Source of the DNA: Mycobacterium sp. 3519A | GTDB taxonomy: Bacteria; Actinomycetota; Actinomycetes; Mycobacteriales; Mycobacteriaceae | Reading direction: 5' to 3' | Length of the DNA: 64,000 bases | Assembly: GCF_900240945.1 (NCBI RefSeq) | Contig: NZ_OESG01000014.1 | Location: forward strand, 2,400,015 to 2,464,014 | Shown: in pieces, positions 1,695 to 18,636 of the stretch | How positions within the stretch are numbered: position 1 is the stretch's first letter | How the letters are laid out: the number at the start of each line of letters is the position of its first letter | Position numbers and translations under genes: made by a program | Notes under the pieces: generated by a model | The model's database searches: none | What the model saw: the letters and a program-made list of their open reading frames with translations, nothing else | Told to the model about the DNA's origin: nothing

Positions 1695-1800
1695 CTCGGC
1701 GGCGTGATTCGCACCGGCTTGTGCGAGACTCTCAATTCTTCCAGCATTCTTCAGGTGCCGCTCAGGTACCCGTCGGGAGGTGGTTGAAACCGCTGTGCAG

Positions 1801-2919
1801 CTAAGACGATGCGAGCGCGGTGAGCTGGAATTGCGTTGCAAGGGCCCGCATAGCGTCGGCGTCGCTGGGTCGTAGCCGTTCCAGGGCGCTGAAGGCCAGA
1901 TGGTCGGCGATCATCATGCGACGCACTGAGATCTCCGGCAGTTCATCGGCCAGCGGTTCCCCCGGCAGGGTATCGACGAGCGCAAAGGTGGCGCCGACGA
2001 TGAGCGGGCACACCGAGGGCGGCATCGAGCGCCGATCACCAAGGACAAGGAGGTCTGCCGCGCCCGATCGAGCAGCAAGGTCGGCCTTCCCCGAGTGGTA
2101 GGGCGACGCATCCAGCAGGTGATGAATCGCCCCATCGACGGACCAGCGCGCGCGCTCCAGCATCGCGGTCCAACCAGCAGGTGAGATGGAGGCCAACACT
2201 GCGGCGGCCAACCGCACCGGTCGCCGGTACGGTGCGGGCGCTCCGACGGCCGCGCACAAGAACGCGGCCGTCGTGATGGCCATATAGGCCACCGCCACCC
2301 GAGCGCCGCGACTATGGATGCACGGGCCGAGCCGGGCGAGCAGGGCGATGCTGCCCAGCGCTGGGGCCAGCACGTGTTGCATTACCGCCCGGGTCAGTTC
2401 CTCGCCGTCGCAGGCGCCGTACAGCGCCAGTTCGCCGTTCCGCAAGTCGCTGGCCAACTGGGCTGTGACGCCGAGGCAGCCTGCCAGCTCGCTCAAATCG
2501 GCTTCGGCGCAGGCATCTTCGGCGACCAGTGAGCATACGTAGAGCACCACCCGTCCGAGCACACGCTCGCCGTAGACGGTCCGCCGCAGCGGGCGATCCA
2601 GGTTCAGCGCCATCACCTGACCGACATCGGTCAACATTCGACCGATCCGTTTGCGGCGTTCGAAGGGCAGTTCCGACAGCAGCTCTCGCGCGTCGCGGAT
2701 GCGCTCGGCCAACACCAGGCCGACCGGCGGTGGCGGTGTATCGGTGTCGCCGTTCAGGTAGTCCACGGCGGCGACGACGGCGCAGGCCGCCAGCGGGCGG
2801 GCGCTCATGTCTTCGTAGGCGGCGAGCACCCGGAAGGCCAGCAGGGCGGCGGTCGCCTCGCACCGCACGTCCGCGGGAAGGAAAGCGGCCGCGATGCCGA
2901 GATTTCGCACCCCGCTCAC
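1801..2919 (-). CDS. Squalene/phytoene synthase-like protein with degenerate motifs
   Basis: The 372-residue protein starts at GTG 2919, which overlaps the stop of the upstream prenyl synthase gene (GTGA), so the two are translationally coupled. The N-terminal text (AAAFLPADVR, ALLAFRVLAAYEDM) resembles the first helices of phytoene and squalene synthases, which couple two prenyl diphosphates head to head. A middle segment (YGERVLGRVVLYVCS, then LGVTAQLASDLRNG) matches the family's second half. The usual Asp-rich motifs are eroded: AYEDM replaces DDxxD and ASDLRN replaces the NxxRD region. It could therefore be a non-catalytic partner or an enzyme with altered chemistry. The distal 130 residues have no motif I recognise. 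Confidence 0.55.
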   Translation of the reverse strand: MSGVRNLGIAAAFLPADVRCEATAALLAFRVLAAYEDMSARPLAACAVVAAVDYLNGDTDTPPPPVGLVLAERIRDARELLSELPFERRKRIGRMLTDVGQVMALNLDRPLRRTVYGERVLGRVVLYVCSLVAEDACAEADLSELAGCLGVTAQLASDLRNGELALYGACDGEELTRAVMQHVLAPALGSIALLARLGPCIHSRGARVAVAYMAITTAAFLCAAVGAPAPYRRPVRLAAAVLASISPAGWTAMLERARWSVDGAIHHLLDASPYHSGKADLAARSGAADLLVLGDRRSMPPSVCPLIVGATFALVDTLPGEPLADELPEISVRRMMIADHLAFSALERLRPSDADAMRALATQFQLTALASS

Positions 2920-3938
2920 CGGGACACCACCCGCACCGACAGTTCGCGCAACTGCTCACGCGCCGGAGATGGCGGGAATGCATCGATGGCCCGGCAGGCC
3001 GTCCGGGCGGCGCGGACGGCGACCGCACGAGCAGCTCGGGTCGCCCCGCTACGCACCAGGTCGGCTCGCAGGTCGGCACTGGACGTCAGCCTGGAGACCC
3101 ACATTTCATGGGACCCGGGCCGCATGGCCAGCCATTCGATCACCGGCCAGGTCGGCACCCGGCGGTCGAGGTCACCGCCCGCGTCTTTGCCCAGTGCGGG
3201 GCCGCCCTCCACGTCGCGGACGTCATCCATGATCTGGAACGCGAGGGCGAGTTGGTCGGCGTATCGCATCAGGGCGCACAACTGAGTGTTGTCGAGGCCG
3301 CCCGCCGTGCCGCCGTACGAGCAGGCCAGGCGGAACAGCGTGCCAGTCTTGGCCCCGGCCACGAGTTCGTAGTGCCTGCGCATGGCGGCGTCGTCGACGG
3401 CAGGTGGCAGGGTCTCGATGAGCTGCCCGAACGACAGGTCCGAGATGCGGTCGAGGTAGGTGACGTCGAGGTCTGCACCGAGCCCTGCGAACACCGCCGG
3501 GTGGTCGGCCAGTACTCGTGCGAGTACCTGTAACGCCGTGCCGACCAGATGAAATCCTGCCCGGGCGGCTGTGCGGACGCCGAACGCAGCCGGTACTGAC
3601 GGCGCATTGCGCCGCAAGAGCGATCCGTCGCAGATGTCGTCGTGAACGAGCGACGCCTCGTGGATCATCTCGATCGCGCACGCCACATCGACGGCGTCGC
3701 GTAGCGGCACCGCGGCAGCCGAGGGCAGCAGACCGGCACAGCCCAGCACCATCGCGGATCGTATCCGTTTACCGGGGACGGCAAGGACGTGGCGGTAAAT
3801 TTCTTCGAAACCGCCACCGTCAACCAGGATTTCGCGCAACCTCTCGGCCACCAGCGGCATGTGATCGGATGGGCAACTCAGCAAGGGGCGGTCGGCGCCC
3901 AGACCACCGGAAGCGACCAAAATGCTTGCGTCAACCAT
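2916..3938 (-). CDS. Trans-isoprenyl diphosphate synthase (GGPP/FPP synthase-like)
   Basis: This 340-residue enzyme has all the chain-elongation motifs: GKRIR (residues 56-60, IPP binding), the first Asp-rich motif DDICD (100-104), KT (197-198) and the second Asp-rich motif DDVRD (238-242). It should condense IPP with an allylic diphosphate to give a longer all-trans prenyl diphosphate in the cytosol. The residues before DDICD (MIHEASLVH) are of the type seen in C15-C20 synthases, but product length cannot be read safely. ATG 3938 is chosen because AAGGA lies six bases upstream; ATG 3944 would leave no spacing. It heads a two-gene operon with 1801-2919 and lies behind shared promoter element A (3990-4066). 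Confidence 0.88.
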   Translation of the reverse strand: MVDASILVASGGLGADRPLLSCPSDHMPLVAERLREILVDGGGFEEIYRHVLAVPGKRIRSAMVLGCAGLLPSAAAVPLRDAVDVACAIEMIHEASLVHDDICDGSLLRRNAPSVPAAFGVRTAARAGFHLVGTALQVLARVLADHPAVFAGLGADLDVTYLDRISDLSFGQLIETLPPAVDDAAMRRHYELVAGAKTGTLFRLACSYGGTAGGLDNTQLCALMRYADQLALAFQIMDDVRDVEGGPALGKDAGGDLDRRVPTWPVIEWLAMRPGSHEMWVSRLTSSADLRADLVRSGATRAARAVAVRAARTACRAIDAFPPSPAREQLRELSVRVVSR

Positions 3939-3989
3939 CCTCATTCCTTCTGCGATGTCTTCGAAACACGCGTTCCGCTCACCACAGAA

Positions 3990-4066
3990 ATCGTCGCTGC
4001 CGTGTGGGGCACTGCGAGCAGTAGTGCGCCACTGCGATCTCGCCCGGTTTCGGCGCGGTACTACTT
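3990..4066 (-). promoter_or_regulatory. Shared cluster promoter element, copy A (drives 2916-3938)
   Basis: Read on the minus strand: box 1 AGTAGTACCG starts at 4065, box 2 GCAGTGG starts at 4035 followed by inverted ACTACTGC, and a -10-like GACGATTTCT starts at 3995. The start-to-start spacings (30 and 40 bases) equal those of copies B and C. An extra GCAGT half-site lies at 4015-4011. The coding start is about 52 bases beyond the GACGAT box. Confidence 0.75.
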
Positions 4067-4090
4067 AACCCGCTCTTGAATCCTGCGACT

Positions 4091-4172
4091 CAGTAGTACC
4101 GCGCCGAGACCAGCCTCGATTGCAGTAGGGCTCCACTGAGAGCCACCCCCCGAATCCGAGTGACGATCCCTA
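4091..4172 (+). promoter_or_regulatory. Shared cluster promoter element, copy B (drives 4231-10457)
   Basis: Box 1 AGTAGTACCG starts at 4092, box 2 GCAGTAG at 4122 with an inverted CCACTGAG after it, and the -10-like GACGATCCCT at 4162. Spacings are 30 and 40 bases, identical to copies A and C. Another GCAGTGG half-site follows at 4175. Copies A and B lie back to back in the divergent intergenic region, and each faces its own gene. Confidence 0.75.
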
Positions 4173-4230
4173 TTGCAGTGGTCCTCTGCGTCGGATCTCC
4201 AGACGGCGCAAACGAGCGCAGGAGGCAACG

Positions 4231-5076
4231 TTGTATGCACTTGCACCAAGTACGCCTCGGCTGATCCCCGGCCGCACCCTTGACAACCTGGACTTGGCGC
4301 CAAGCGGCGGTGTTTGTCGCGGCTCGATCCGCGTGGATCGTCAAGACCCTGTGTTCTTCGACCATCCGCTCGACCACGTGCCGGGAATGCTGCTGGTGGT
4401 CGCCGGTCTTGAGTTGGCCGAGCACGCAGCGATGCTGCGGCCGGCCCACGTGAATTTCCGTCTCACGTTCAAAAAATTCTGCGAGCTCGACGCCCCGGTT
4501 GACGTGAGTGCGACCCGCGAAACCGGTGGGAACCCGTTCGAATTCGTCCAATTAGGCCGCAGCATAGCGAGGGGACTGCTGGGCCGACGCGAGACCGCGC
4601 TGCCGGCGGAGCTTGCCCCGGTGCCAGCATTTGGCAACGGTTCGATCCCGGGTGAACTGGTGCACCGGGCCGACCCCGGAAATATCGCGGTCGGCCCGCT
4701 GACAATCGACGCCGGACGCGTCTGGGTTCGCGTACTCGAGGAGGCCGCCCTCGGCGGAATACCACCGAAGGCCAGCGCGGTCGCCTCCATCATCGAGGCC
4801 GCCCGGCAGTTCGTCATCGCGATTCTTCACTTGTGGGGCCGCCAGCCACTGGGGACGAAGATGATATTCGTCGGCCTCACCGCAGACGTGCCCACTGCGC
4901 TGCCGCAGGGTCACGTCACGCGGGCCCTGTCGTGGCAGCCCACTCCGCCAGAACAGACACGCAAAATCCACATCGACGTGCACGCGGTAGGCGATCGAGC
5001 CATCAAAGTCGGCTCGATTGTCATCGCGGCCCGCTGCGCCGACGAAATCGAGTACGCGCAATTGCGCGCGGGCTAG
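4231..5076 (+). CDS. AfsA-like A-factor biosynthesis double-hotdog protein
   Basis: The 281-residue protein contains the family signature DHPLDHVPGMLLV (about residues 44-56) and a second half with EAARQF at about 190, matching the two-hotdog layout of AfsA/ScbA proteins. In Streptomyces, AfsA joins a beta-ketoacyl chain from an acyl carrier to dihydroxyacetone phosphate in butyrolactone autoinducer synthesis. TTG 4231 is chosen because GGAGG ends five bases upstream. It is the first gene of the rightward operon and follows promoter element B. No butyrolactone-receptor-type TetR gene is adjacent, so a role in building a metabolite rather than a signal is equally possible. The family call is firm; substrate and product are inference. 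Confidence 0.8.
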   Translation: MYALAPSTPRLIPGRTLDNLDLAPSGGVCRGSIRVDRQDPVFFDHPLDHVPGMLLVVAGLELAEHAAMLRPAHVNFRLTFKKFCELDAPVDVSATRETGGNPFEFVQLGRSIARGLLGRRETALPAELAPVPAFGNGSIPGELVHRADPGNIAVGPLTIDAGRVWVRVLEEAALGGIPPKASAVASIIEAARQFVIAILHLWGRQPLGTKMIFVGLTADVPTALPQGHVTRALSWQPTPPEQTRKIHIDVHAVGDRAIKVGSIVIAARCADEIEYAQLRAG

Positions 5077-5094
5077 ACGATGGAAGGCTGGTAA

Positions 5095-5718
5095 ATGACT
5101 GATCGACTCGCCACGTACATTCTTCGTAATCTCCTGGTACTGACCACCATTGGTCTTGCGATTGCGGTCGCGGCACACCTTGCCGGCGGGCGCCTCGCTG
5201 CAGCGGCTTTCGTCGCCGCATACCTGGTGTGGCTGCTTTCCGAGGCACGAATCACGGTTGGGACACCGACACAATCAGCCGCGGAGACTCGTACCCTCGT
5301 TCCATACGCGGTAGCGCGAGTCGCGACGGCACTGACGGCTGCGTACTCCGCGCCCGCGGTCCCCGACAAGTTCGGTATCGTGCTCGCCGGGATTTTCGGT
5401 GCGGGTGTGATGTTGCGCGCGTGGGCGATTCACGAACTGGGCCGCCAGTATTCGCATCGAGTGGTACGGCTCTCCGAGGGCGGCCTCGTTTCGTCCGGGC
5501 CGTACCGGACGCTGCGCCATCCCGCCTATGCCGGAATGTTGCTCGCCAACATCGGTTTAGTCGGCTACTTCGCGAGTCCTGCGAGTATCGCGGCACTGAC
5601 TCTCCTTGTCGCCGCGGTCCTCTGGCGCATCAGAATCGAAGAGGACATCCTCGCTGAATCGCCGCAGTACCGCGCTTTCGCCAAGACACGATGCCGGATC
5701 GTACCGGGGGTGTGGTGA
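5095..5718 (+). CDS. ICMT/PEMT-family membrane methyltransferase
   Basis: The 207-residue protein has several hydrophobic helices and the C-terminal signature SGPYRTLRHPAYAGM, typical of isoprenylcysteine carboxyl methyltransferase and phospholipid methyltransferase families (GxYxxxRHPxYxG), followed by EEDIL near the end. These use S-adenosylmethionine at the membrane to methylate a carboxylate, amine or similar group on a lipophilic substrate. The ATG has GGAAGG upstream. Its TGA overlaps the ATG of the next gene (TGATG), so expression is coupled. In this cluster it could O-methylate a prenylated intermediate; that is inference. Confidence 0.8.
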   Translation: MTDRLATYILRNLLVLTTIGLAIAVAAHLAGGRLAAAAFVAAYLVWLLSEARITVGTPTQSAAETRTLVPYAVARVATALTAAYSAPAVPDKFGIVLAGIFGAGVMLRAWAIHELGRQYSHRVVRLSEGGLVSSGPYRTLRHPAYAGMLLANIGLVGYFASPASIAALTLLVAAVLWRIRIEEDILAESPQYRAFAKTRCRIVPGVW

Positions 5719-8378
5719 TGATCAAGATCATTGACGCGCCCGCGGAACTGGCTGACGCCAGCGTGGTTGGGCACAAGTTCGCGCGCCAGCAACAGTTACG
5801 CGATGCCGGGGTTTCCGTCCCGCCGTTCTTCTGCGTCGTCAGGGAAACTCCGTGGTCAGCCGTCGCCGATGTCGTCGGCACCTTTCCCGGTGTCGGCGCC
5901 AGCGTCGAGAAGTTGACTGCCTGGGCCGAGGCGGCTCGCAGCGCTGTCGAGCACATGCGCCTCATGCCGGAGACAGAAGCCGAGATCTGGGAGAGGTACG
6001 CCGCCCTCGGCTCAGCCGACGTCGCAGTCCGTGCATGCGTGGTCGGCCGTCACGCACAGCCCGGCGAAGATGATGCCGCGGACCCGTTCGCGGGCCTCAC
6101 AGATAGTTACCTGTACGTTGGCGCGGACACGCTCATCGATGCCGTTTCAGCTTGTACCGCATCGCTTTTCAGTGTCAGATCGGTACTCTACCGCGCGCGG
6201 CGGGGGATCGACCCCCGAGTCCTCAGCATCTGCGTCGGAATTCAGCAGATGATCGATGGCGAGCGCTCGTTCGTCGTGTTCACCCACGATCCTGCTACCG
6301 GAGCCAGAGAGACTGTGGTCGCCGGCGTCTACGGCATCGGAGAAGGTGCGGTAGCCGAACGCGCCGACATCGACCACTTTTTCGTACGCGCGGACGGGAT
6401 CGGGCGGCTCATCTCGCACAAGGAGAGAATGCTCCGCCGGGCACCGGGCGGTGGCGTTACTGAGTATCGGGTGCCGGCTGGACTCGCCGACCTACCGGTG
6501 TTCTCCGATGCGGAAATCAGTCAGATCGCAGCGCTGGCGGAGACCACCGAGCGGTTGTTGTCCGGACCCCAAGACATAGAGGGCGTCGTCACGGCCGACT
6601 CAGCGATTCACCTGGTGCAGGCACGGCCGGCCACGTCGCCCCAAGCGCCGGCGACCACAGTCGAATGGACCAATCACAATCTGACTGAGAGCTTTCCGGG
6701 CGTGACCACCGCGATGACCTACTCGCACGCACGAGTCTTCTACCGCATGAGTTTCCGCAGCTTCTATCGCATCGTCGGAGTCTCTGAGAGCCAACTGCGG
6801 AGTCGGGACTACCAACTTCGTCGCATGATCGGATACCTCGACGGGCGGGCCTACTACCGCCTGGACGCGTGGTACGCACTGCACAGCCAGCTCCCCGGGT
6901 GGGACCTGCTTCGTCCGATGTGGGAGCGGTCGTTGGGCCTCGCAGAGCGAAATCCCAACCCAAGCCACGTGCTCGGCCGCCGTGCCATCACACGCATTAT
7001 CGGGCGTTCACCGCGACTGATATGGGCGGCCATCAGTTTTCCCCGCAAATTGCGGAGATTCTTGACCTGGTGGGATGCCCAGCACAGCCTCGGGGAGGGA
7101 CTGTCGCAAAAGCCGGTTGATGAACTAATCGAGACCTACCGCCGAATGTGGTCGGAAGCCGAATCACGCTGGGGTATACCGATTCTGGCCGGATACCTAT
7201 GCCTAGCTAGCTATGTCGTGGCGAGCGCCCTGGTCCAGCGGTGGACCCACTCCCTCGACGTGGACCTCACCGTACTCTTGCCGGGAGGGCCACCGAACCG
7301 AACGCTGCAGTCGGTGCACTCCACGGTGGCGCTCGCCGAGCAGATAAACGCGAACCCCGCGTTGGCGGCGCGAGTGCTGACTGGCGACGCACGCGATACC
7401 TGGGACCGCATCGCACGAGGCGCCTACGGCGGCAAACTGGAGTCCGATGCCCTTACGCATCTCAGGAAATTCGGCGACCGCGCCATGCACGACCTCAAGA
7501 TCGAGGAGCTGACGCCACGCCAGAGACCTGAGATGGTCATCGACGCCCTGCGGCCGTTTGTTGCAGCGGGAGCGACAATGCAGCAGACGCGGCTTCAGGA
7601 ATCGACCGCGGCCATAGCCGCACTTGATGAACTACACCGCATCTGCCCGTCACGGTGGAGACGCGCCCTTCTTCGCGCCGCGCTGCGGGTGGGTAGGTTC
7701 CTGGTGAGAGCTCGCGAGGACACCCGGTTCTGCCGCACCCAGCTATACGGATTCTCAAGGGAAGTCATGCGTCGCCTTGGGTCTGAGCTAGCCGCTGCAG
7801 GGTGTCTGGATTCACCCGATGACTATGTCCATCTGGAGGCCGACGAATTGTTGGCAGCCTTCGACGGCACCTCCACACACCCCGACCTGCGCGTCCTGGC
7901 ACGGACCCGAAAAGACGCCTATCTACGATCGAGGAATCGGCCCGCCCTTGCAGCCAAACTCACAACTGCCCCGCCGCCGATCGCTGCCGCCGACCTTCGT
8001 CGCGGGGCTGCCACATCGGCGACCGCAGGTTCCAGCACCGAACTGATCGGTCTTCCATCCAGCGCCGGGATTGCCTGTGGTCGCGCGAAATTGGTGCTGC
8101 GACCGGATGTTCCGCCGAGCGACTGCGCTGGGCGGATCCTGGTCGCCCGCGAAACCGATCCTGGATGGCTACCACTGATGCTCAACGCAACGGGACTCGT
8201 CGTCGAGCGCGGCAGCATGGTCTCCCACACCGCAATAACGGGACGGATGCTCGGCATCCCGACTGTGGTAGCGGTTGCTGGCGCGACCGCCAAGATATCC
8301 GACGGCGACGAGGTCGAGATCGACGGTAGATCGGGCAGCGTCCGCATCCTCTGCCCCCACTCACAGAAGCCGCGGTGA
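5718..8378 (+). CDS. PEP-synthase-like ATP-grasp/phosphohistidine phosphotransferase
   Basis: The 886-residue protein has the architecture of PEP synthase and rifampicin phosphotransferase. It has an N-terminal ATP-grasp (PPDK_N) region from about residue 10 (DAGVSVPPFF) to about 300 (PQDIEGVVTADS, HLVQARP), a long central region, and a C-terminal swivelling domain with the phospho-His loop SMVSHTAITGRMLGIP at about 830. Such enzymes use ATP to phosphorylate the His, then transfer phosphate to pyruvate or, in relatives, to a hydroxyl of a small molecule. No PEP-synthase C-terminal TIM barrel follows, so true PEP synthesis is unlikely and phosphorylation of a pathway intermediate fits better. 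It overlaps the preceding stop and ends four bases before the P450 start. Confidence 0.8.
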   Translation: MIKIIDAPAELADASVVGHKFARQQQLRDAGVSVPPFFCVVRETPWSAVADVVGTFPGVGASVEKLTAWAEAARSAVEHMRLMPETEAEIWERYAALGSADVAVRACVVGRHAQPGEDDAADPFAGLTDSYLYVGADTLIDAVSACTASLFSVRSVLYRARRGIDPRVLSICVGIQQMIDGERSFVVFTHDPATGARETVVAGVYGIGEGAVAERADIDHFFVRADGIGRLISHKERMLRRAPGGGVTEYRVPAGLADLPVFSDAEISQIAALAETTERLLSGPQDIEGVVTADSAIHLVQARPATSPQAPATTVEWTNHNLTESFPGVTTAMTYSHARVFYRMSFRSFYRIVGVSESQLRSRDYQLRRMIGYLDGRAYYRLDAWYALHSQLPGWDLLRPMWERSLGLAERNPNPSHVLGRRAITRIIGRSPRLIWAAISFPRKLRRFLTWWDAQHSLGEGLSQKPVDELIETYRRMWSEAESRWGIPILAGYLCLASYVVASALVQRWTHSLDVDLTVLLPGGPPNRTLQSVHSTVALAEQINANPALAARVLTGDARDTWDRIARGAYGGKLESDALTHLRKFGDRAMHDLKIEELTPRQRPEMVIDALRPFVAAGATMQQTRLQESTAAIAALDELHRICPSRWRRALLRAALRVGRFLVRAREDTRFCRTQLYGFSREVMRRLGSELAAAGCLDSPDDYVHLEADELLAAFDGTSTHPDLRVLARTRKDAYLRSRNRPALAAKLTTAPPPIAAADLRRGAATSATAGSSTELIGLPSSAGIACGRAKLVLRPDVPPSDCAGRILVARETDPGWLPLMLNATGLVVERGSMVSHTAITGRMLGIPTVVAVAGATAKISDGDEVEIDGRSGSVRILCPHSQKPR

Positions 8379-8382
8379 CATC

Positions 8383-9567
8383 ATGCAACTGCCGCTAGCG
8401 AGCTGCCCGCGTACTTCGCTCCCGCAACATCATGTCGATACCTTTCGTGAAACACCGACCGCCGACATCACGTTGGCTGACGGCACGGCGGCGATCGCGG
8501 TGACTCGTCAGTGCGACGTACGAACCGTGTTGAGTGACAACCGCTTCAGTCGGGCACAACTTCGGGCACCTACCGTTGGCGCGGGCTCCGATCTGCCTCT
8601 GGCGCTGGTCACCTCGGATCCACCAACCCATACCCGTCGGCGCCAGGCCGTTCAAGGATGGTTCACCAAGCGGCGGGCGCAGATGGCTCGACCGCTCATC
8701 GGCCGCGTCGCCGATCAACTTCTCGACGATCTGCTCGCGGCGGGGCCACCAGCCGACATCTTCACGCAGTTCTGCCAGCCTTTTCCGAACCTCGTGCACA
8801 TGACGCTGCTCGGGCTGGACACCGCCGATCTGCCATTTCTCGTGCCGCGAATAACGGTCGCATGGTCAGCTGGTCACTACCAACCTGACGAGGTCACGAA
8901 AGCAAACCGCGACCTGCACGACTACTTCGAAAGTCGAGTCAGTCGATCGGGTAGTCAGACGACAACGCGCGGGCTGATCGATGCCCTGGTACGGGACGAA
9001 TCCTCAAACAAGCTGACCCACGCAGAAATCGTCATGCTCGCCATGGGGCTGCTCATGTCGGGCGCCGAGACGACCGCCAGTCACCTCGCACTGAGTCTCA
9101 TCGAGGTACTTCAGCACCCCGGACTGGTGGATTCGCTTCGCCGAGATCCCGAGCAGATTCCATCCGCGGTCGAAGAGCTGCTGCGCTGGGTTTGGTTCGG
9201 CGGCACGATCGGGGGTACGGCGGGTCGTCCGCACGTCGCAACCGCTGACGTGAAGCTGCGCGACCGTCTGATCTTGAAGGGGGAAATCGTCGTGCCCGTA
9301 CTTGATGTCGCCAACCGCGATCGCGATGTGTTCCCAGACGCTGACAAGTTCTGCCCTCAGCGGAGTCCGAACCCCCACCTCGGATTCGGGCACGGGCGGC
9401 ACCAGTGCATCGGAATGGCCTTCGCTCGCCTCGAACTGCAAGTCGGCCTGCAAACGGTGCTGTCACGGCTCAGCGGACTAACTCTTGCTGCGTCCGAGAT
9501 CGATTGGCGCACGCAGATGTTCACCCGGGGGGTATGGGGCCTGCCGGTGATGTGGCAAGGAGGCTGA
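8383..9567 (+). CDS. Cytochrome P450
   Basis: The 394-residue class I bacterial P450 has the I-helix oxygen-activation motif SGAETT (226-231), the K-helix ExxR in EELLR (264-268) and the heme loop GFGHGRHQCIG with the Cys thiolate ligand at about 342. It should hydroxylate or oxidise a lipophilic substrate using external ferredoxin; no ferredoxin gene is nearby. ATG 8383 sits four bases after the previous stop, and the two-base gap to the UbiA gene shows a single operon. A role in tailoring the isoprenoid product is inferred from the neighbours. Confidence 0.93.
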   Translation: MQLPLASCPRTSLPQHHVDTFRETPTADITLADGTAAIAVTRQCDVRTVLSDNRFSRAQLRAPTVGAGSDLPLALVTSDPPTHTRRRQAVQGWFTKRRAQMARPLIGRVADQLLDDLLAAGPPADIFTQFCQPFPNLVHMTLLGLDTADLPFLVPRITVAWSAGHYQPDEVTKANRDLHDYFESRVSRSGSQTTTRGLIDALVRDESSNKLTHAEIVMLAMGLLMSGAETTASHLALSLIEVLQHPGLVDSLRRDPEQIPSAVEELLRWVWFGGTIGGTAGRPHVATADVKLRDRLILKGEIVVPVLDVANRDRDVFPDADKFCPQRSPNPHLGFGHGRHQCIGMAFARLELQVGLQTVLSRLSGLTLAASEIDWRTQMFTRGVWGLPVMWQGG

Positions 9568-9569
9568 CA

Positions 9570-10457
9570 ATGACTGCTGCCGTTGGTATCTCGAACTTCA
9601 TTCTCACCAGGTATCCACCGGTCCTCACCAGCGTGTATGCGTTGGCGTTCGGCGCCGGAGGGATCGGTCTGTTCGCCGCGCTCGCTGGGGAACGGATTCC
9701 TGCCAGCGCGATACCGATGTTGGGGATAGTTGCCTTGACCCTGTTCGCCGACTTGCTGATCATGCGTGTCCTCGACGACATCCGTGACAGCGATTACGAC
9801 CGGATTGCCAACCCAGAGCGCCCGGTGGCGTCCGGCGCAGTGACGAATCGGGACCTGTCCGCTCTGTGCGCCCTATGCGTGACGGTCATCGTCGTCGCGA
9901 ATCTGTCCTTCCCCAGCGGATTGTTCGTCCTCGTCGTACAGCTCCTCTACACCGGAGCGCTGGTGGCTGTCGGGCAGCGATTCCCGGCCACTCGCGGCGA
10001 CAACCTCGTTCTGAACTTGCTTTTCAGTCTTCCGGTTCAACTGCTGCTGTATGTGTACCTGCTCGCGGCATTCGCCAGGATCCGCCCCGATGCGCTGACC
10101 CCAGTCGTCGGTGGGCTTGGAATTCTGATCCTGACGCTGTGCGCCGGCCAGGTCGAGTTCGGAAAGAAACTTGTCCGCCAGCCCGCGCCAGACGAACGAA
10201 GCTACGTCAATTCGATTGGCTACCATGCAACGTCGCTGCTCGCGATCGGCACCGGGCCGCTCGCCGCTGTGCTGTTCGCCATCGCTGCGCCTGTTTCGCC
10301 GCTGTCCAAGGCATTCGTCGTGTTGCCTGCGATCGGTGTTGCCGGATTCGGCATCATGTACCTCAGCCATAAGGGCGATCGATGGCCAGCAGCGCTGTCA
10401 ACCCTTGGCCTACTAGGTACGCTGATCGCCTTCGCCGTCGTCGGAGTGGTCGGCTAG
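9570..10457 (+). CDS. UbiA-family membrane prenyltransferase
   Basis: The 295-residue, highly hydrophobic protein has about eight to nine membrane segments. The first Asp-rich signature LDDIRDSDYDRIANPERP (about 68-85) fits the UbiA pattern NDxxDxxxDxxNxPxRP, which binds Mg-prenyl diphosphate. UbiA enzymes transfer a prenyl chain from a diphosphate to an acceptor such as an aromatic ring or a glycerol phosphate. The donor may come from the GGPP-synthase-like enzyme at 2916-3938. It closes the rightward operon and overlaps by four bases the stop of the convergent SnoaL-like gene. Confidence 0.85.
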   Translation: MTAAVGISNFILTRYPPVLTSVYALAFGAGGIGLFAALAGERIPASAIPMLGIVALTLFADLLIMRVLDDIRDSDYDRIANPERPVASGAVTNRDLSALCALCVTVIVVANLSFPSGLFVLVVQLLYTGALVAVGQRFPATRGDNLVLNLLFSLPVQLLLYVYLLAAFARIRPDALTPVVGGLGILILTLCAGQVEFGKKLVRQPAPDERSYVNSIGYHATSLLAIGTGPLAAVLFAIAAPVSPLSKAFVVLPAIGVAGFGIMYLSHKGDRWPAALSTLGLLGTLIAFAVVGVVG

Positions 10458-10846
10458 AACCAATCCTGTGCCGGATCGATTGCCGCATTGAACTCGGCGT
10501 GCCAATACTCGTGCAGGACGGAGCAGCGTCCGTCAGATTCGAATCGGAGTGTGAGGCAACCGGATGCGGTCCGCGGTTCGCGTGTCGCGGGATCGTGAAG
10601 AACGCACCAGAATTCCACCGCGGCGCGGCCCGCGGACTCGATCGCACTGCCGAACCAGATTCGCGGGTCGACTTGTCTGGACAGCGTTTCGACCCAATGT
10701 GCGCGAATTGCGTCGCGTCCGCGATGTGGAGCACCGAACGGGCCGCGGTGGTAGTGCGCATCGTCGGTGAAGAGGCCGGCGATCGCAGTTGGATCCCGTT
10801 GTCGCCACCCCGACTCGAGAGCGCTGATCCATTCGTCGACGCTCAT
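10454..10846 (-). CDS. NTF2/SnoaL-like fold protein
   Basis: A 130-residue protein from ATG 10846. It has the NTF2-like pattern of an N-terminal helix (EWISALESGWRQRDPTAIAGLF) followed by DDAHYHRGPF and a curved sheet with VEFWCVLHDP and LHEYWHAEFN. Members include polyketide cyclases, isomerases and non-catalytic binding proteins, so function cannot be set from fold alone. It is last in the operon mmpL, prenyl-synthase-like, SnoaL-like. A GTG at 10861 overlapping the upstream stop is an alternative start. In a terpenoid cluster it could be a cyclase or isomerase. Confidence 0.65.
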   Translation of the reverse strand: MSVDEWISALESGWRQRDPTAIAGLFTDDAHYHRGPFGAPHRGRDAIRAHWVETLSRQVDPRIWFGSAIESAGRAAVEFWCVLHDPATREPRTASGCLTLRFESDGRCSVLHEYWHAEFNAAIDPAQDWF

Positions 10847-10857
10847 AGGTTCTTTGG

Positions 10858-11883
10858 TCACTGGAGTTGAAACTGCGGAAAGTAGGTAATCGTCTCGTCG
10901 ATGAGCCCGGCTAGCTCGCTGACACACTGCGGGTCACCACTGAGCGACGCAAGCGTGTCGCGAGCGGCACGGACGATGGGCTGGATTGTCTCTGTGTAGC
11001 TGGAAACGATGTCCTGCGCCAACATTGCTCGCTTCAGTTCAGCCCGCGCCTCCTCCGAAGTTCGCGCTTGCCGGTGAAGGCCGATCAGTTCCGCCCGTCG
11101 GGCAGTCGACACAGTGCCGAGAAGATGAACGAGCAGATAGGTCGCAGTGCCGTTTCGCAGATCCTCGTCGCGTTCGGTGACCAGGTCGCGCTGGTCGTTG
11201 ACCAGTTGACGAAGAACTCCGAGTCTCCTGCCGAACGAGCGCCAGGCATCGACTCGGTCGTCGTCGCACTCTGCGAGCTGCGCGGCGAGCGCGGCGGACA
11301 TCCCGTAGGGTGCGCCCGTCTTGCCCTCGTAGTTGCGCAGCACATCGTCGAGAGTTGCGGTCTCGACGTCGAGAACGAGGTCGGTCAGCTGCCCGCTCAA
11401 CGCGTCGATGCATCCGTTGCTGTACTCGGTGAGCAGACGCAACCGAACCGCATCGGAGATAGCGAGATCGCCGAAAATGTTGAGCGGCAGATAATTCCCC
11501 ACCGCAATTGCGGTCATCACGCCGCGGTTGAAATCCGCGGGAGCGGTCCGCGTGAGTTCCGGATTGTCGATCATGTCGTCCAGATACCGCGCCGCCGCCC
11601 ACCAGAGTGTGTGAACAAGCGCTACGGGTGTCGCACGCATCGGCGCAGCGGTCTCGGCGCCGAACACGAGCACGGGCAGCATGACGATGCCGTTGATGCT
11701 GCGCGCAGAGCCGTCCAACGGAATCATGCCGAAGAACGCTTCGATGAACGTCCCCATCGCGCGATCACCGGTTGAATCACTGGCCAACAGCCGCTCGGTC
11801 ATCGCCGAAGCTTGTGTTGCGACCTCCGCCAGCACCCGTTGCTGTGTAGTCATTTCGAACGCATCGTGTTGCAACGACTGCAT
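10858..11883 (-). CDS. Polyprenyl-synthetase-fold protein with variant motifs
   Basis: The 341-residue protein has a first Asp-rich motif DDMID (102-106), KTG (188-190) and a second motif NDQRD (229-233) with Asn replacing the first Asp. The N-terminal IPP-binding GKRxR motif is missing. This differs from the orthodox synthase at 2916-3938. Loss of the IPP site with NDxxD is compatible with an IDS-like terpene cyclase or a prenyltransferase acting on another acceptor (ComQ-type enzymes also vary here). Catalysis on an isoprenoid diphosphate with Mg is likely; the reaction is not known. Its start lies one base after the mmpL stop. Confidence 0.7.
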   Translation of the reverse strand: MQSLQHDAFEMTTQQRVLAEVATQASAMTERLLASDSTGDRAMGTFIEAFFGMIPLDGSARSINGIVMLPVLVFGAETAAPMRATPVALVHTLWWAAARYLDDMIDNPELTRTAPADFNRGVMTAIAVGNYLPLNIFGDLAISDAVRLRLLTEYSNGCIDALSGQLTDLVLDVETATLDDVLRNYEGKTGAPYGMSAALAAQLAECDDDRVDAWRSFGRRLGVLRQLVNDQRDLVTERDEDLRNGTATYLLVHLLGTVSTARRAELIGLHRQARTSEEARAELKRAMLAQDIVSSYTETIQPIVRAARDTLASLSGDPQCVSELAGLIDETITYFPQFQLQ

Positions 11884-11884
11884 G

Positions 11885-14128
11885 TCAGTTCGCCGCCAAT
11901 TGCGCTGTCAGTTGCCGCACGGTCAATTGATGCCGACGATGGGCGTCACTCACGAGCAGATGCGCGGGAGGCCGTCGCCAATGAGGTGCCCACCAGTTCG
12001 CCCGACCCATCAGCCTCATCGCGGCGGGCATGAGGATCGCGCGAATCAATGTGGCGTCGAACAGGATCGCTAGCGTCAACCCGACGCCTAGCAACTTGAC
12101 GAACGACACCGAAGAGGTGGCCATCGCGATGAACACGACTGACATGATCAGTGCCGCCGCAGTGACGACGGGGCCAACGCGTTGCAGCCCGCGCATCACG
12201 GCGAGGTTGGTGTCGCCGTGCGTGCGGTACTCCTCAGTGATGCGCGACAACAGGAACACTTCGTAGTCCATGGACAGCCCGAATGTGAGGCAAATGATCA
12301 GGATGGGCACCGGTGCAGGCAGTGTCCCAGTTACAGCGAAATCTCCAACCAGCCACTTGAGGTGACCCTCCTGAAAGATGAACACCATCGCGCCGAGAGT
12401 CGCAGACAGACTGACTACGTTGAGCAGCAACGCCTTGATCGGCAGTACCACGCTTCGCGTGAACGCGAACAGCACGCCGAACATCGCCAGCACCATCAGT
12501 GCCAGAGCCAATGGAACGCGCTCAAACAGAGCGTCTTTGGTATCAGCGTTCTCCGCGGTGAGTCCGCCGACATGCACGGTGCCCGGAGCGGGTGTTCCGC
12601 GTACCTGATCAAGGAGCAGGTTGGCCGCGTCGCTGTAGGGATCAACGTCTGGAATCAGCCGTAGATAGGCGCCATTCGCGTCGGGCACCGGCATTTCGCC
12701 AATTCGTTGCCCGTCGACATAGCTCGTCATTCCCAGTTTGACGGCCACGACGTGCGGCAACTTTGACAGCGTCGCGGCGTACCCGTCCAGCTGATCGGCA
12801 CCCCCAGAGCCTTCGAGGAGCACATCCATCGCAGCAGTCGCTTGCGCCGGGAATTCGGAGCGGATCACGTCTCCGACACTTCGGCTTTCGATCGTCGCAG
12901 GCAGCGACCGGTCATCCGGAAAGTTCAAGCGGATGGCACCGAACGGTGCCGCAAGAAGCAGGGCCAGGACCAGAACCGCGCCCCCCATCACGACCGGCCT
13001 CCGCATGACCAACCGTGAACTGCGGAACCAGAATCCGTCTTCCTCCGCCCGCGCTTCGGTCGGTGCGCGACGCCCAAACAGCTGCGGAATCTCCCGGCGC
13101 ACATTGAGCGAGTCGATTCGGGAGCCCAGAAGTCGTAACAGGGCGGGCATGACGACAAGCGCGCACACCGTCGCGAGCAGTACCACACCGACACACGCAT
13201 AGGCGATCGAACGCAGGAACATCATCGGAAACGCAAGCAGCGCCAGCACCGACAGCGTCACCGTGGTGGCAGAGAACGCTACCGTGCGCCCCGCGGTTCG
13301 AACCGACTCGATGATCGCATCGTCGAGGGACTGAGCCCGGGTCCGTTCTTCACGGAACCTGGTCAGCACCAGAAGGCTGTAGTCGATGGCCAGAGCCAGA
13401 CCGACGATCGTCGTCACGTTGAGCGCATAGTTGGACACCGGAGTGAAATCCGACAACAACGCGAGAAGGCCGAGTGAGCCCACGATCGAAAGCGCACCGA
13501 TGATGAGCGGCAAGCCGGCTGCCACGAGACTGCCGAACACCAGTGTCATCAGCACCAGGATTATCGGCATCGCGACTGCTTCACTGATCGCCAAGTCGTG
13601 GTTGAGCTGATCGGTCACGTCGTTGTAGCTGACCGCCTCACCGCCGAGTTCGAGCTTCAGCGGACCGCGCTCGGTGCCGCGGTAGGTGGCGATGAGACGT
13701 TGGGCCGCCGCCGCGAACTCGCGCTCATCGCCTTCGACGTGCGCCACGATCAGTGCCTTCGTCCCGTCTTTGCTGCGGAGCAATTCGGACGGGCCCGGCC
13801 CCCAGTACGAGCTGACCGTTGTGACACCGGGCGTGGCGGCAAGCTCTCTAGTGAGAGCCTGGCCGGCGGCAACCGCGACGGGGTCGTCGACAGACCCGCT
13901 GTCGGTGGCGGTCGCGAGAATCACGAAGTTCGGTTTGCCGACGTGAAACCGCTGCTCGAGCATGGCAGCGGCGCGCTGCGATTCGGAAGAAACGCTGTAG
14001 AAGCCGCCCCCTGACAGCCGGTCGGTGATTCCTGAACCGTAGGCAAATGCGGCGACCATGATGACCAAGGTTGCGGCGAGAACCGCCTTCGGCCGGGCCA
14101 CGGCCATCCGCGCAAGCCGGTCCAACAT
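11885..14128 (-). CDS. MmpL/RND-family lipid or metabolite exporter
   Basis: From ATG 14128 the protein has 747 residues with the MmpL layout: one N-terminal helix, an extracytoplasmic domain, five helices, then the same again. The duplicated MMPL signatures are visible as LALAIDYSLLVLTRFREE and FGLSMDYEVFLLSRITEE; their Asp-Tyr pairs carry protons. Mycobacterial MmpLs export lipids or siderophores. Here it is first in the leftward operon behind promoter element C, so it is the probable exporter of the cluster product. In-frame ATGs at 14197 and 14221 are alternatives; 14128 gives the usual MmpL N-terminus (MLDRLARMAVARPK). Confidence 0.88.
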   Translation of the reverse strand: MLDRLARMAVARPKAVLAATLVIMVAAFAYGSGITDRLSGGGFYSVSSESQRAAAMLEQRFHVGKPNFVILATATDSGSVDDPVAVAAGQALTRELAATPGVTTVSSYWGPGPSELLRSKDGTKALIVAHVEGDEREFAAAAQRLIATYRGTERGPLKLELGGEAVSYNDVTDQLNHDLAISEAVAMPIILVLMTLVFGSLVAAGLPLIIGALSIVGSLGLLALLSDFTPVSNYALNVTTIVGLALAIDYSLLVLTRFREERTRAQSLDDAIIESVRTAGRTVAFSATTVTLSVLALLAFPMMFLRSIAYACVGVVLLATVCALVVMPALLRLLGSRIDSLNVRREIPQLFGRRAPTEARAEEDGFWFRSSRLVMRRPVVMGGAVLVLALLLAAPFGAIRLNFPDDRSLPATIESRSVGDVIRSEFPAQATAAMDVLLEGSGGADQLDGYAATLSKLPHVVAVKLGMTSYVDGQRIGEMPVPDANGAYLRLIPDVDPYSDAANLLLDQVRGTPAPGTVHVGGLTAENADTKDALFERVPLALALMVLAMFGVLFAFTRSVVLPIKALLLNVVSLSATLGAMVFIFQEGHLKWLVGDFAVTGTLPAPVPILIICLTFGLSMDYEVFLLSRITEEYRTHGDTNLAVMRGLQRVGPVVTAAALIMSVVFIAMATSSVSFVKLLGVGLTLAILFDATLIRAILMPAAMRLMGRANWWAPHWRRPPAHLLVSDAHRRHQLTVRQLTAQLAAN

Positions 14129-14243
14129 CGTTGTCTTCTCTTGGCGTCGATGGGTACGGCGATTGTGGCCGGTTGCGGGTGGGGAGATCGTCGCCATAGC
14201 GCCGCGCCATCCTTCCGCCATGACTGGGTGTCTTGACCGAAAA

Positions 14244-14320
14244 ATCATCAGTCGCGGTTGGCGCCAAGAACGCAGTAGTACCCCACTGCAATCTCGCCCG
14301 GTTCCGGCCCGGCACTACTT
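14244..14320 (-). promoter_or_regulatory. Shared cluster promoter element, copy C (drives 14128-10454)
   Basis: Minus strand: box 1 AGTAGTGCCG starts at 14319, box 2 GCAGTGG at 14289 followed by inverted ACTACTGC, and the -10-like GATGATTTTT at 14249. Spacings of 30 and 40 bases match copies A and B, 10 kb away. Across the box 1 to box 3 span it is roughly 85 percent identical to copy A. Confidence 0.75.
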
Positions 14321-14502
14321 AGCCGCGACTTCGAGCCCGTTCATTGTTGTCGCGCCATCCGGGAAGCAGAAGCACCAGCGCGACGCAGGTGCATCGCTAC
14401 CGTTGCCCACACCGGTAGCGTGACACCGCGCAGGCCACGGTCAGCGGATCGTCCTTCTCGATCGGTTCGAGCACGGTCGGTCAACGAGGTATCTTCCGCT
14501 GC

Positions 14503-15837
14503 ATGGCCGCATCGCCGACACCCCTGACGATCATGTTCTGGCCCGAATCGGCGTACGGGCCGACGAACCAGTGCATCGGACTGGCCGCGATCCTTCGCGA
14601 TCGCGGGCACACCATCGTGTTCGCCGCCGAGAGTTCGTGGGCAGGCAAGCTGGCCCCGTTCGGCTTCATCGAGGAACTCGTCGACCTGGCCGAACCGCCG
14701 GCGGATGCGGACGAGCAGGACGCGGGCGCATTCTGGACCGACTTCATCACCGAGACCGCGCCGGAGTTCCGCAAGCCAACCATCGAACAACTCGGGTCGT
14801 TCATCCAGCCGACGTATCAGGCGCTCATCGACGGCGCCAAATATTGCGAACCCCGCCTGCGCGAGATCATCGCCACGCACCGACCCGTTGTCCTCGTCGA
14901 GGACAACGTGGTGCTCTTCCCGGCGCTCGCAACTTCGGGTGCGCCGTTCGTGCGCATTGTGTCCTGCAGTCCGTTGGAGATCAGAGGGCCGGGCGTGCCG
15001 CCGCCGTTCTCGGGACTGCCCAGCGCCGATCGGTCGCAATGGGATGCCTACCGAACCGAATTCGAGCGCACCCACCGCGCGATGTGGAGCGACTTCAACT
15101 CGTGGGTGCAGGCACAGGGCGCCGCGGCGCTGCCCGATCTCGAGTTCATGCCCCGCGGTGGAGCATCGAATCCCGCCGCCAACCTCTACGTGTATCCGGC
15201 CGAGGCCGACTATCTCGAGGCGCGTCCGCTCGACGACAGCTGGGTGAGAATGGATTCCAGCGTGCGCGAGACCGACGAGGACTACGTCATCCCGCCATCG
15301 CTGGCCGACCGACCTGACGACAGTGCCCTGATCTACCTGTCGCTGGGGTCGCTCGGCGGCGCCGACGTCGAACTCATGCAGCGCCTGGTCGACATCCTCG
15401 GCACCACCCGGCACCGCTTCATCGTCAGCAAGGGCCCGCAGGCGGATCGGATCACCCTGACGGACAACATGATTGGCGCACAGATGGTGCCGCAGACGAA
15501 GATCATCCCGCAGGTCGACCTGGTGATCTCGCACGGCGGCAACAACACCGTGACGGAGACACTGCACTTCGGCAAGCCGTTGATCGTGCTGCCGTTGTTC
15601 TGGGACCAGTACGAGAACGCGCAGCGGATCGACGAACTCGGCTTCGGCGTGCGATTGAACACCTACGGGTTCGCCGACGCCGAATTGACCGACGCCGTCG
15701 AGCGGCTGCTGGGCGATACCGCGCTGCGCGCCCGGTTGGCCGAGCAGGGCGACGCGATCCGCGCCCGCGACGGCCTGCGTGTCGGCGCCGACGTCATCGA
15801 GCAGGTCGGTGCGAAGTACCGGGCGTCGCTTGACTGA
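14503..15837 (+). CDS. GT1-family (YjiC/MGT-like) glycosyltransferase
   Basis: The 444-residue protein has the two-Rossmann GT-B layout. The N-terminal acceptor half begins LTIMFWPESAYGPTNQCIGLA. The C-terminal half carries the sugar-nucleotide loop SHGGNNTVTETLHFGKP followed by DQYENAQRIDELGFG, the GT1 signature. It should transfer a sugar from a nucleotide donor to a small hydrophobic acceptor. The next two genes (glucosamine-kinase-like and SIS protein) overlap head to tail and suggest an amino-sugar substrate. The sugar is inference. It lies next to, but outside, the three-promoter regulon. Confidence 0.85.
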   Translation: MAASPTPLTIMFWPESAYGPTNQCIGLAAILRDRGHTIVFAAESSWAGKLAPFGFIEELVDLAEPPADADEQDAGAFWTDFITETAPEFRKPTIEQLGSFIQPTYQALIDGAKYCEPRLREIIATHRPVVLVEDNVVLFPALATSGAPFVRIVSCSPLEIRGPGVPPPFSGLPSADRSQWDAYRTEFERTHRAMWSDFNSWVQAQGAAALPDLEFMPRGGASNPAANLYVYPAEADYLEARPLDDSWVRMDSSVRETDEDYVIPPSLADRPDDSALIYLSLGSLGGADVELMQRLVDILGTTRHRFIVSKGPQADRITLTDNMIGAQMVPQTKIIPQVDLVISHGGNNTVTETLHFGKPLIVLPLFWDQYENAQRIDELGFGVRLNTYGFADAELTDAVERLLGDTALRARLAEQGDAIRARDGLRVGADVIEQVGAKYRASLD

Positions 15838-17017
15838 CGCCTGCGACGTCATCGACGCGTTGGAACTCGCTGAGGGCTCACGGCTTTCGGTGCTCTCAAA
15901 TCAGGCTGCCGTCCCGATGGTTCGCGATGGCGCGGGGCCGTGGCGGCGTGCTCATCCCGGCGACGGTGCCGCGGAGGCGTTGTTGACCCTGCTGGCCACT
16001 GTCGACGAGAGTCGCATCGGTAACTTCGCCGTGCGTTCGTGGCTGCGGCGCACGGCCGTCGGCGAGCGCCCCGTCGGTGTGGACCAGACCAACGAGTCCG
16101 TCATCGTCGGCGGCGCCGCCGTGGTCAAGTGGGCGACCCACTTGCAGCAGGGGCCGCATCCTGCGCCGCATCGGATCAGCGTGCTGCGCGACGCCGGATT
16201 CGGCGGGATGCCCGCACCGTGGGGAGTGGTCACGTGGCGAGCGCCGGATGGTACGGAGACGTTGGTCGCCAACGTGGACGAGTACGTCCCCGGCGCCGTC
16301 GACGGCTGGACCTGGGCTGTCGATCTGCTCACCGAAGCGGCTCGCGAACACCGCCCCGAAACGGCCACCGATATGATCCGGCAACTCGGGCGTCTGATCG
16401 CCGACATGCACGACCACCTGAGCGCGACCATCACCACCGCCTCCGCTCAGGACGCGACCCGGTGGCGTGAGTCCGCGAACTACACCCTCGAAACCGTTTG
16501 TGCACTCGGCGATTCAGCGTGCGTCGAATTGACGCGGCGCCGCCGCGACGACTTCGCGTCCGCATTCGAGAGCCTCGGCGAATTCGCGGGCACCCCGGTC
16601 ATCGAGGGCCACGGTGACCTGCACGTCGGTCAGATCCTGCGCAGCGGCGATCGCCTGTTGGTCACCGACTTCGACGGCAACCCCGTACTCCCGGCTTCGC
16701 AACGGGCGCTACCGATCCCCGCAGCTCTCGACGTGGCTGGCATGACCCAGTCGCTGACGCACGCAACGATCGTCGCGGCCAAACACACTGAGCTCGAACC
16801 CGCGGCGCTCGCCGAAGTCGAGGCGATGGTGCGGGACACGTTCCTGGACGCTTACGCCTCGACCCTGCAGCATTCCGAGTTGTACGACCAGGATCTGCTC
16901 ATGCCCTTCCGGCTGCAGCAGGTACTGCGTGAGATCATCTATGCCGCACGCCATCTACCCCGCTGGATGTATGTGCCCGATGCCGCCTTGCCCGCACTGT
17001 TGGGGACCGCCATATGA
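15830..17017 (+). CDS. Actinobacterial glucosamine-kinase-like (maltokinase/APH fold) enzyme
   Basis: About 395 residues with an aminoglycoside-phosphotransferase fold. The catalytic Brenner motif is GHGDLHVGQIL and the metal-binding motif is DFDGNP, both near residues 260-290. This pairing is typical of the maltokinase-like family that includes the actinobacterial glucosamine kinases, which make glucosamine-6-phosphate from ATP. The SIS gene starting inside its stop fits the gene context described for that group. TTG 15830, overlapping the GT stop by eight bases, is a best guess with no strong ribosome site; GTG 15809 is an alternative. Substrate identity is inferred from context. Confidence 0.7.
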   Translation: MTDACDVIDALELAEGSRLSVLSNQAAVPMVRDGAGPWRRAHPGDGAAEALLTLLATVDESRIGNFAVRSWLRRTAVGERPVGVDQTNESVIVGGAAVVKWATHLQQGPHPAPHRISVLRDAGFGGMPAPWGVVTWRAPDGTETLVANVDEYVPGAVDGWTWAVDLLTEAAREHRPETATDMIRQLGRLIADMHDHLSATITTASAQDATRWRESANYTLETVCALGDSACVELTRRRRDDFASAFESLGEFAGTPVIEGHGDLHVGQILRSGDRLLVTDFDGNPVLPASQRALPIPAALDVAGMTQSLTHATIVAAKHTELEPAALAEVEAMVRDTFLDAYASTLQHSELYDQDLLMPFRLQQVLREIIYAARHLPRWMYVPDAALPALLGTAI

Positions 17018-17988: not shown

Positions 17989-17996
17989 CCGACGCC

Positions 17997-18029
17997 CCTG
18001 AGTTCTGCTGTGGGATCACGGAACTCAGG
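17997..18029. terminator. Inverted repeat, possible terminator
   Basis: Perfect 9-base arms CCTGAGTTC (17997-18005) and GAACTCAGG (18021-18029) with a 15-base loop, nine bases after the SIS gene stop and between convergent genes. There is no T-run, as is common in mycobacteria. Confidence 0.45.
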
Positions 18030-18169
18030 ATGTCCGCACCCGAGGCATCAATTTGCATCGGCAGCGGCCGGTAGCCGATCGTGTAGCCGGCCACCATATC
18101 GGTGAATTCCATTGCCAGCGGCGCCCGACCTTTGCCCCGCGGCCGGTACAGACCACGGGCACTTCAAGG

Positions 18170-18574: not shown

Positions 18575-18636
18575 TGTGATGCTCCTGGTGGTCGCGCCGC
18601 GGTGGCTCACGACGCCGAGCCGACACGGCTCCGGGT

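Follow-up and report, generated by a model that had tools for sequence, protein, structure and literature searches.

The window analysed here is a stretch of 64,000 nucleotides from Mycobacterium sp. 3519A (contig NZ_OESG01000014.1, positions 2,400,015 to 2,464,014). It carries a terpenoid gene cluster of three transcription units, A, B and C, and each unit is preceded by a copy of the same composite promoter element. We found that the core of this element is a palindrome, CAGTRG-N4-CYACTG, spaced from a -10-like box, and that an AGTAGT box upstream of it is an accessory third half-site. The palindrome with its -10-like box recurs across the genus and is linked to genes for one class of large ATP-binding LuxR (LAL) regulators, which carry the sequence TVESH in the recognition helix of their helix-turn-helix (HTH). 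Our analysis of these sequences suggests that the element probably serves as operator and promoter for an activator system that is spread through the genus Mycobacterium and run by a TVESH LAL.

Structure and conservation of the element at the terpenoid cluster

An earlier note on this DNA had described three copies of a composite of AGTAGTRCCG, GCAGTRG with an inverted half-site, and GAYGATYYYT. Our search reproduced all three at the positions claimed. AGTAGTRCCG starts at 4065 (minus strand), 4092 (plus) and 14319 (minus) in copies A, B and C, GCAGTRG at 4035, 4122 and 14289, and GAYGATYYYT at 3995, 4162 and 14249, on the same strands. The box starts are 30 and then 40 bases apart in every copy, as the note had stated. 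The full composite pattern has exactly three matches on the two strands of the window. When up to three mismatches are allowed in the two upstream boxes, A, B and C are still the only matches; dinucleotide shuffles gave a mean of 0.42, and none of 100 reached three. GCAGTRG and the inverted half-site form the 16-bp palindrome; in all three copies, 23 bp separate its end from GAYGAT. The AGTAGT box has the orientation of the left arm and is located 32 bp upstream of the AGTRG in that arm.

To identify related clusters, we used the phosphoenolpyruvate (PEP)-synthase-like protein of unit B as a query against the named genome collection. This produced 10 loci, of which seven contain the cluster and match the query at 85-90% identity. 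The seven are in Mycolicibacterium rhodesiae JS60, Mycobacterium sp. OAS707, Mycolicibacter sp. MYC098, Mycobacterium sp. URHB0044, M. arenosum CAU 1645 and two metagenome-assembled genomes; genome G114 (locus L055) is an eighth other genome with the cluster. Promoters A, B and C were compared in the nine genomes, the window included, giving 27 promoters. The palindrome and the -10-like box are kept with at most two mismatches in total at 26 of them, bearing out the conservation in relatives that the earlier note had proposed as a check. The exception is promoter B of L169, with two mismatches in the palindrome and one in the -10-like box. The gap between palindrome and -10-like box is 23 bp at all 27. 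At L167 the cluster is rearranged and the boxes precede the moved units too; its promoter C has an exact palindrome and one mismatch in the -10-like box.

The sequences between the boxes are also alike in A, B and C, as would be expected if the copies were recent duplicates without function. However, the retention of the boxes at 26 promoters in nine genomes and their presence before the moved units of L167 make this scarcely credible.

L164 (position 3804) and L165 (position 3997) each have an additional gene, located upstream of the cluster and preceded by a box with one palindrome mismatch. At its start, the encoded protein is similar to the L167 polyprenyl synthase, which suggests that the gene may be a second synthase copy.

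The box elsewhere in the genome and across the genus

The genome (7.3 Mb, 14 contigs) contains 10 CAGTRG-N4-CYACTG palindromes and three matches to the reversed pattern. Besides A, B and C, four of the palindromes are followed, after 23 or 24 bp, by a -10-like box (L006, L007, L010 and L011). L008, L009 and L012, which have none, were set aside as probable chance occurrences. The distance of the upstream box varies within this genome, being 2 bp shorter in L007 and L011. With the gap fixed at 23 bp and up to three mismatches, there are 41 matches, compared to 16 in the reversed control. Six of the 41 have no mismatch; the 35 others include one with a single mismatch (C13:2482884), and some are readings of a palindrome on the opposite strand. 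We limit the regulon claim for this genome to the seven strict sites.

In a genus sample of 148 genomes, we searched for a strict box, defined as the palindrome, a gap of 21-25 bp and SAYGATYY. It occurs 31 times, in 19 genomes, and the reversed control 0 times. The gap is 23 bp in 27 boxes and 24 bp in four. Strict boxes at the cluster are found in the window (three), L055 (two), L047 and L062 (one each); the four other boxes of our genome and the rest are located elsewhere. Sampling the family more widely (251 genomes, 31 genera), we found a match in four genomes. Because only one of the four is outside the genus (one match, 25-bp gap), the strict box seems to be confined to Mycobacterium sensu lato. 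The accessory half-site has a positional preference. Over 67 genus boxes, AGTAG starts at -33 to -29 relative to the palindrome in 28 exactly and in 41 with at most one mismatch, compared to no exact and two to three near matches in three control windows.

These data narrow the claim that the element occurs nowhere else. It is true for the window, and in the genome the exact 10-7-10 composite is present only at A, B and C among six one-mismatch matches of its upstream part. For the genome as a whole it fails, with the four additional palindromes that bear a -10-like box. The element also does not define this cluster, as had been proposed, since 20 of the 31 strict genus boxes are at loci without a following unit of the terpenoid cluster. 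The earlier note had named occurrence at many unrelated genes as evidence against its reading, and this is found in part: the palindrome with its -10-like box is a wider regulon box.

Linkage of the box to TVESH LAL genes

Inspection of the genes around the 31 strict boxes revealed a recurring gene for a STAND/LuxR (LAL) regulator of ~870 residues. A gene of this class is located within 600 bp of 12 boxes, with an expectation of ~7e-4 per box. Ten of the 12 are at TVESH LALs and two at the TVESY LAL of L043. In ten measured cases the box follows the LAL stop codon at a distance of 6-456 bp and is oriented like the LAL gene. The HTH of the box-linked LALs reads RTVESH, except in L043, where it reads VESY; the L126 LAL also has VESY.

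The linkage was also examined independently of the box. LALs were collected by protein search and those fetched through a box were excluded, leaving 40 flanks (34 TVESH, four VEGH, one VETH and one VESY). A palindrome with at most one mismatch is found within 400 bp 3' of the stop codon in 16 of the 34 TVESH LALs, and is perfect in 10. None is found in their 34 upstream 400-bp flanks or in the 34 reversed 3' flanks. Among LALs of other types, a set from the protein search and earlier fetches, one of 16 has a 3' palindrome, and none a perfect one. L043, L044, L055, L117 and L126 are excluded from these counts.

A similar association is observed between genomes. A LAL at least 59% identical to L120 is present in 18 of the 19 genomes with a strict box and in 27 of the 129 without (Fisher p = 4e-10), an identity limit that was chosen after the list was seen, which counts against this comparison. 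The 27 genomes with the LAL and no strict box contain a one-mismatch box in 19 cases (41 boxes, control 1). Among 27 genomes without the LAL, hand-picked from the list and including G107, four contain one (5 boxes, control 0). A tree of 61 LALs places 44 of the 45 TVESH rows in a single group (SH-aLRT 95), with L158 outside. In G090, a TVESH LAL gene adjoins the MmpL unit of the cluster, and together with two cyclase-STAND genes it is located beside and within the cluster. Taken together, the regulator of the box is likely a LAL of the TVESH class.

Several observations weigh against this assignment. No palindrome is found within 400 bp 3' of 18 of the 34 TVESH LALs, including L131, the nearest relative of the LAL in our genome, or of the L115 LAL of G090. 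Between the L011 box and a convergent cyclase gene, no gene was called in the direction of the box, which might be a source of antisense or short RNA, or a relic. G107 has a box and no LAL at the threshold used, the boxes of G054 and G123 flank LALs of only 50-54% identity, and G114 has a VEGH-type LAL next to its cluster. The last three, together with a one-mismatch palindrome 343 bp 3' of a VETH LAL (L160), would be expected if the box were shared by several LAL paralogues, of both the VEGH and TVESH types, and the cluster were run by another LAL or by cross-talk. However, non-TVESH LALs have a 3' palindrome in only the one case of 16 given above (L055 and L117 not counted), and G114 also encodes a TVESH LAL, L120, with a perfect palindrome 21 bp 3' of it. 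We consider shared use by paralogues possible and on balance unlikely, and favor control by TVESH LALs.

Three TVESH LALs without the canonical palindrome, L144, L147 and L153, share CCGTGGAGTACCACGG 270-355 bp 3' of the LAL stop codon. The sequence common to the three has the form CCGTGG-N4-CCACGG, and might represent either an operator variant or coding DNA that the three have in common. At L055 (263-3140, G114), the VEGH LAL and a 64-residue protein with a helix-turn-helix-like stretch, recognized by eye, are encoded beside the terpenoid cluster. Large cyclase proteins that have an AAA domain and lack a TVE-type HTH motif are found near LALs or boxes at 11 of 48 loci: L007 (6668-9865), L011 (5912-9373), L043, L044, L059, L060, L107, L115 (two), L163, L167 and L168, of which L115 and L168 belong to one genome. 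These proteins may be partners of the LALs.

The candidate regulator in Mycobacterium sp. 3519A

Our genome encodes eight full-length LALs, and exactly one is of the TVESH type. Its gene (L011) is located at C14:1953112-1955721, outside the window and ~450 kb from the cluster. The C-terminal LuxR (GerE) HTH is clear (residues 808-859, 44.4 bits, cut-off 23.5). The AAA_16 score is slightly below its cut-off (30.1 bits, cut-off 32.6), and is 35.8 bits in the paralogue L107. No Pfam domain was found in the middle region. Two identities for this protein were rejected. It is not IniR, with 35.9 bits compared to 750 for the IniR equivalog model and a match at the HTH end only. It is also not an mclx protein, and Pfam finds no Guanylate_cyc domain in its chain.

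Promoter architecture and proposed mechanism

No sigma-70-like promoter was found at 3900-4300 or 14100-14500, in agreement with the poor -35 regions that the earlier note had remarked on. The conserved positions of a -10 hexamer are TANNNT. The A and the last T of GAYGAT fit this pattern, and transcription would start ~12 nt after its first base. Among the 67 genus boxes, an ATG 12-13 nt after this base opens an open reading frame (ORF) of more than 200 codons in L043, L045, L061 and L126. The same is true of a GTG in L047 and, in two instances, in L064. These leaderless-looking starts weakly support the -10 register. If GAYGAT is the -10 box, the palindrome would end at -36 and be centred near -43.5, because it ends 23 bp before GAYGAT. 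Two half-sites one helical turn apart beside RNA polymerase would suit a LuxR-type HTH dimer, and the frequency of AGTAG upstream fits the optional binding of a further subunit.

The conservation of GAYGAT exceeds that of a usual -10 box. With no sigma-70-like promoter found, GAYGAT and the -35 sequences could form the promoter of an alternative sigma factor of the extracytoplasmic function (ECF) type, the palindrome being secondary. However, bases 17-22 after the palindrome start, where the -35 end is expected, are poorly conserved except for one C, and the palindrome is the strongest part of the element. An ECF-type promoter is very unlikely as the explanation.

We instead propose the following mechanism for a LAL activator. 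A TVESH LAL, a MalT-like STAND protein, would bind CAGTRG-N4-CYACTG as a dimer. In our genome, the single TVESH LAL would act in trans on the cluster. The bound protein would contact RNA polymerase in place of the missing -35 box and recruit it, and an additional LAL subunit could occupy the AGTAG half-site, located about three helical turns further upstream. In the presence of its signal, the LAL would switch on units A, B and C together with at least three other loci. Like the earlier note, we infer one regulator that contacts direct and inverted AGTRG half-sites at a fixed distance from the -10 box. Its role as an activator, which the note had also suggested, is consistent with the candidate belonging to a known activator class.

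Genes behind the boxes

Features are listed in Table 1. No Rfam match was found in positions 1-20000 of the window. The 372-residue protein of unit A has no sequence match in Pfam, NCBIfam or PDB, and it lacks ~40 N-terminal and 11 inner residues present in its orthologues. A structure predicted for the L163 orthologue, with five relatives, had a mean pLDDT of 39 and was not used. In unit B, the PEP-synthase-like protein scores 542 bits with the NCBIfam PEP synthase model, below the cut-off of 883, and no Pfam match was found for the UbiA-like prenyltransferase.

The first gene of unit B encodes a protein with an AfsA domain (Pfam, 45.3 bits, cut-off 24). This suggests another candidate for the boxes, a TetR repressor like ArpA/ScbR that would act as a gamma-butyrolactone-type receptor, with the AfsA-domain protein as its partner. 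However, the protein scores 68.4 bits with the ScbA/BarX equivalog model, below the cut-off of 200, and most genus boxes are located off the cluster and beside LAL genes. Such a receptor, at which no systematic search was aimed, is a highly improbable ligand of the boxes, for which a TVESH LAL remains our candidate.

Other boxes in the genus precede genes for polyketide synthases (L051, L054), acyltransferases (L043, L060), a cytochrome P450 (L061) and a glucose/sorbosone-dehydrogenase-PKD protein (L048). The L052 box precedes a gene for an Lhr-type helicase, outside any theme.

Table 1. Elements and genes of the terpenoid cluster, with the other strict boxes of the genome
Feature	Position	Strand	Remarks
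Copy A, upstream accessory half-site AGTAG (of AGTAGTACCG)	4061..4065	-	positional preference over 67 boxes
Copy A, putative operator palindrome CAGTGGCGCACTACTG	4019..4034	-	kept in eight other genomes
Copy A, -10-like GACGAT	3990..3995	-	23-bp gap; start site predicted near 3983
Copy B, upstream accessory half-site AGTAG	4092..4096	+	positional preference over 67 boxes
Copy B, putative operator palindrome CAGTAGGGCTCCACTG	4123..4138	+	kept in relatives
Copy B, -10-like GACGAT	4162..4167	+	start site predicted near 4174
Copy C, upstream accessory half-site AGTAG	14315..14319	-	positional preference over 67 boxes
Copy C, putative operator palindrome CAGTGGGGTACTACTG	14273..14288	-	kept in relatives
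Copy C, -10-like GATGAT	14244..14249	-	start site predicted near 14237
Unit A gene 1, polyprenyl synthase, 342 aa	2916..3944	-	Pfam PF00348, 154 bits
Unit A gene 2, 372-aa protein of no known family	1801..2919	-	orthologues in relatives
Unit B gene 1, AfsA-domain protein, 281 aa	4231..5076	+	TTG start behind AGGAGG
Unit B gene 2, ICMT-like methyltransferase	5095..5718	+	Pfam ICMT, 66.5 bits
Unit B gene 3, PEP-synthase-like protein	5691..8378	+	PPDK_N and PEP-utilizers domains
Unit B gene 4, cytochrome P450	8383..9567	+	Pfam and NCBIfam scans
Unit B gene 5, UbiA-like prenyltransferase	9570..10457	+	NCBIfam PRK13592, 56 bits (cut-off 443, not reached)
Unit C gene 1, MmpL-family transporter	11885..14128	-	Pfam MMPL, 250 bits (scanned as 11885-14248); start by gene call
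Unit C gene 2, second polyprenyl-synthase-fold protein	10858..11883	-	Pfam PF00348, 64.5 bits
Unit C gene 3, SnoaL-like protein	10454..10927	-	Pfam SnoaL_2, 56.4 bits
L006 box			precedes gene for PE-PPE-domain protein
L007 box			precedes 129-aa ORF without Pfam match; 24-bp gap
L010 box			precedes 330-aa ORF without Pfam match
L011 box	L011:5750		directly behind the TVESH LAL gene

Comparison with known systems

By analogy, the box system would work like a MalT/LAL activator and its operator. The passages cited for MalT of Actinoplanes sp. SE50/110 describe a palindrome, TCATCC-N5-GGATGA, whose end is 34.4 +/- 1.0 bases from mapped starts (PMC7567727). Our proposed system would share with it a MalT-like LuxR activator, a palindrome of two 6-bp arms over the -35 region (here ~36 bases from the predicted start) and the placement of boxes in front of many units in a large gene region. 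Unlike the Actinoplanes operator, the half-site here is CAGTRG with an N4 spacer and a third half-site is located upstream; the targets are terpenoid genes and scattered loci rather than a maltose-responsive region, and the boxes are linked to LALs over the genus. E. coli MalT, the model for our proposed mechanism, is described as multimerizing, binding MalT boxes cooperatively and recruiting RNA polymerase (PMC4381067). Its boxes, quoted as GGGGA(T/G)GAGG (PMC7567727), are different from CAGTRG.

IniR (Rv0339c/MMAR_0612) is a mycobacterial STAND/LuxR activator of iniBAC, the class proposed for our candidate. It binds upstream of its target by chromatin immunoprecipitation sequencing, and is reported to control only iniBAC; the cited passages give no consensus site (PMC5760070). 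Unlike IniR itself, our candidate resembles the IniR model only in the HTH. The mclx cyclase/LuxR proteins of M. tuberculosis combine AAA and LuxR HTH domains (PMC4452763, PMC3466318). Our candidate likewise has a LuxR HTH with a putative AAA region, and class III cyclase proteins with an AAA domain are encoded near several boxes. Unlike mclx proteins, the candidate LAL has no cyclase domain, and Pfam found no LuxR domain in the two neighboring cyclase proteins scanned.

The PimM/FscRI activators of Streptomyces recognize CTVGGGAWWTCCCBAG (PMC5143413). As in that description, the site here is a 16-bp inverted repeat of a candidate LuxR-type activator, which would serve co-regulated biosynthetic units and targets outside their own cluster too. 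PimM and FscRI are PAS-LuxR proteins, whereas our candidate is a LAL, and the site sequences differ.

In the open-access literature, we found no published site of the sequence CAGTRG-N4-CYACTG. Within the passages of that literature available, IniR is the only mycobacterial LAL for which we found a mapped binding locus, and we found a consensus site for none of them.

Implications

A more far-reaching possibility is that TVESH LALs constitute a Mycobacterium-wide signalling system that reads metabolites of the clusters they control. The terpenoid pathway, headed by an AfsA-type gene, would then make the signal sensed by its own LAL, in a positive loop resembling quorum sensing, with the cyclase-STAND proteins encoded near many boxes as co-sensors. 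We regard this as a long shot.

With a site that tracks a single LAL class throughout the genus, these orphan regulators become testable. The box predicts targets, including the polyketide synthases, acyltransferases and P450 named above, the PE-PPE protein of L006 and the terpenoid cluster. For the terpenoid cluster with its AfsA-type gene, the box would provide a handle for switching it on.

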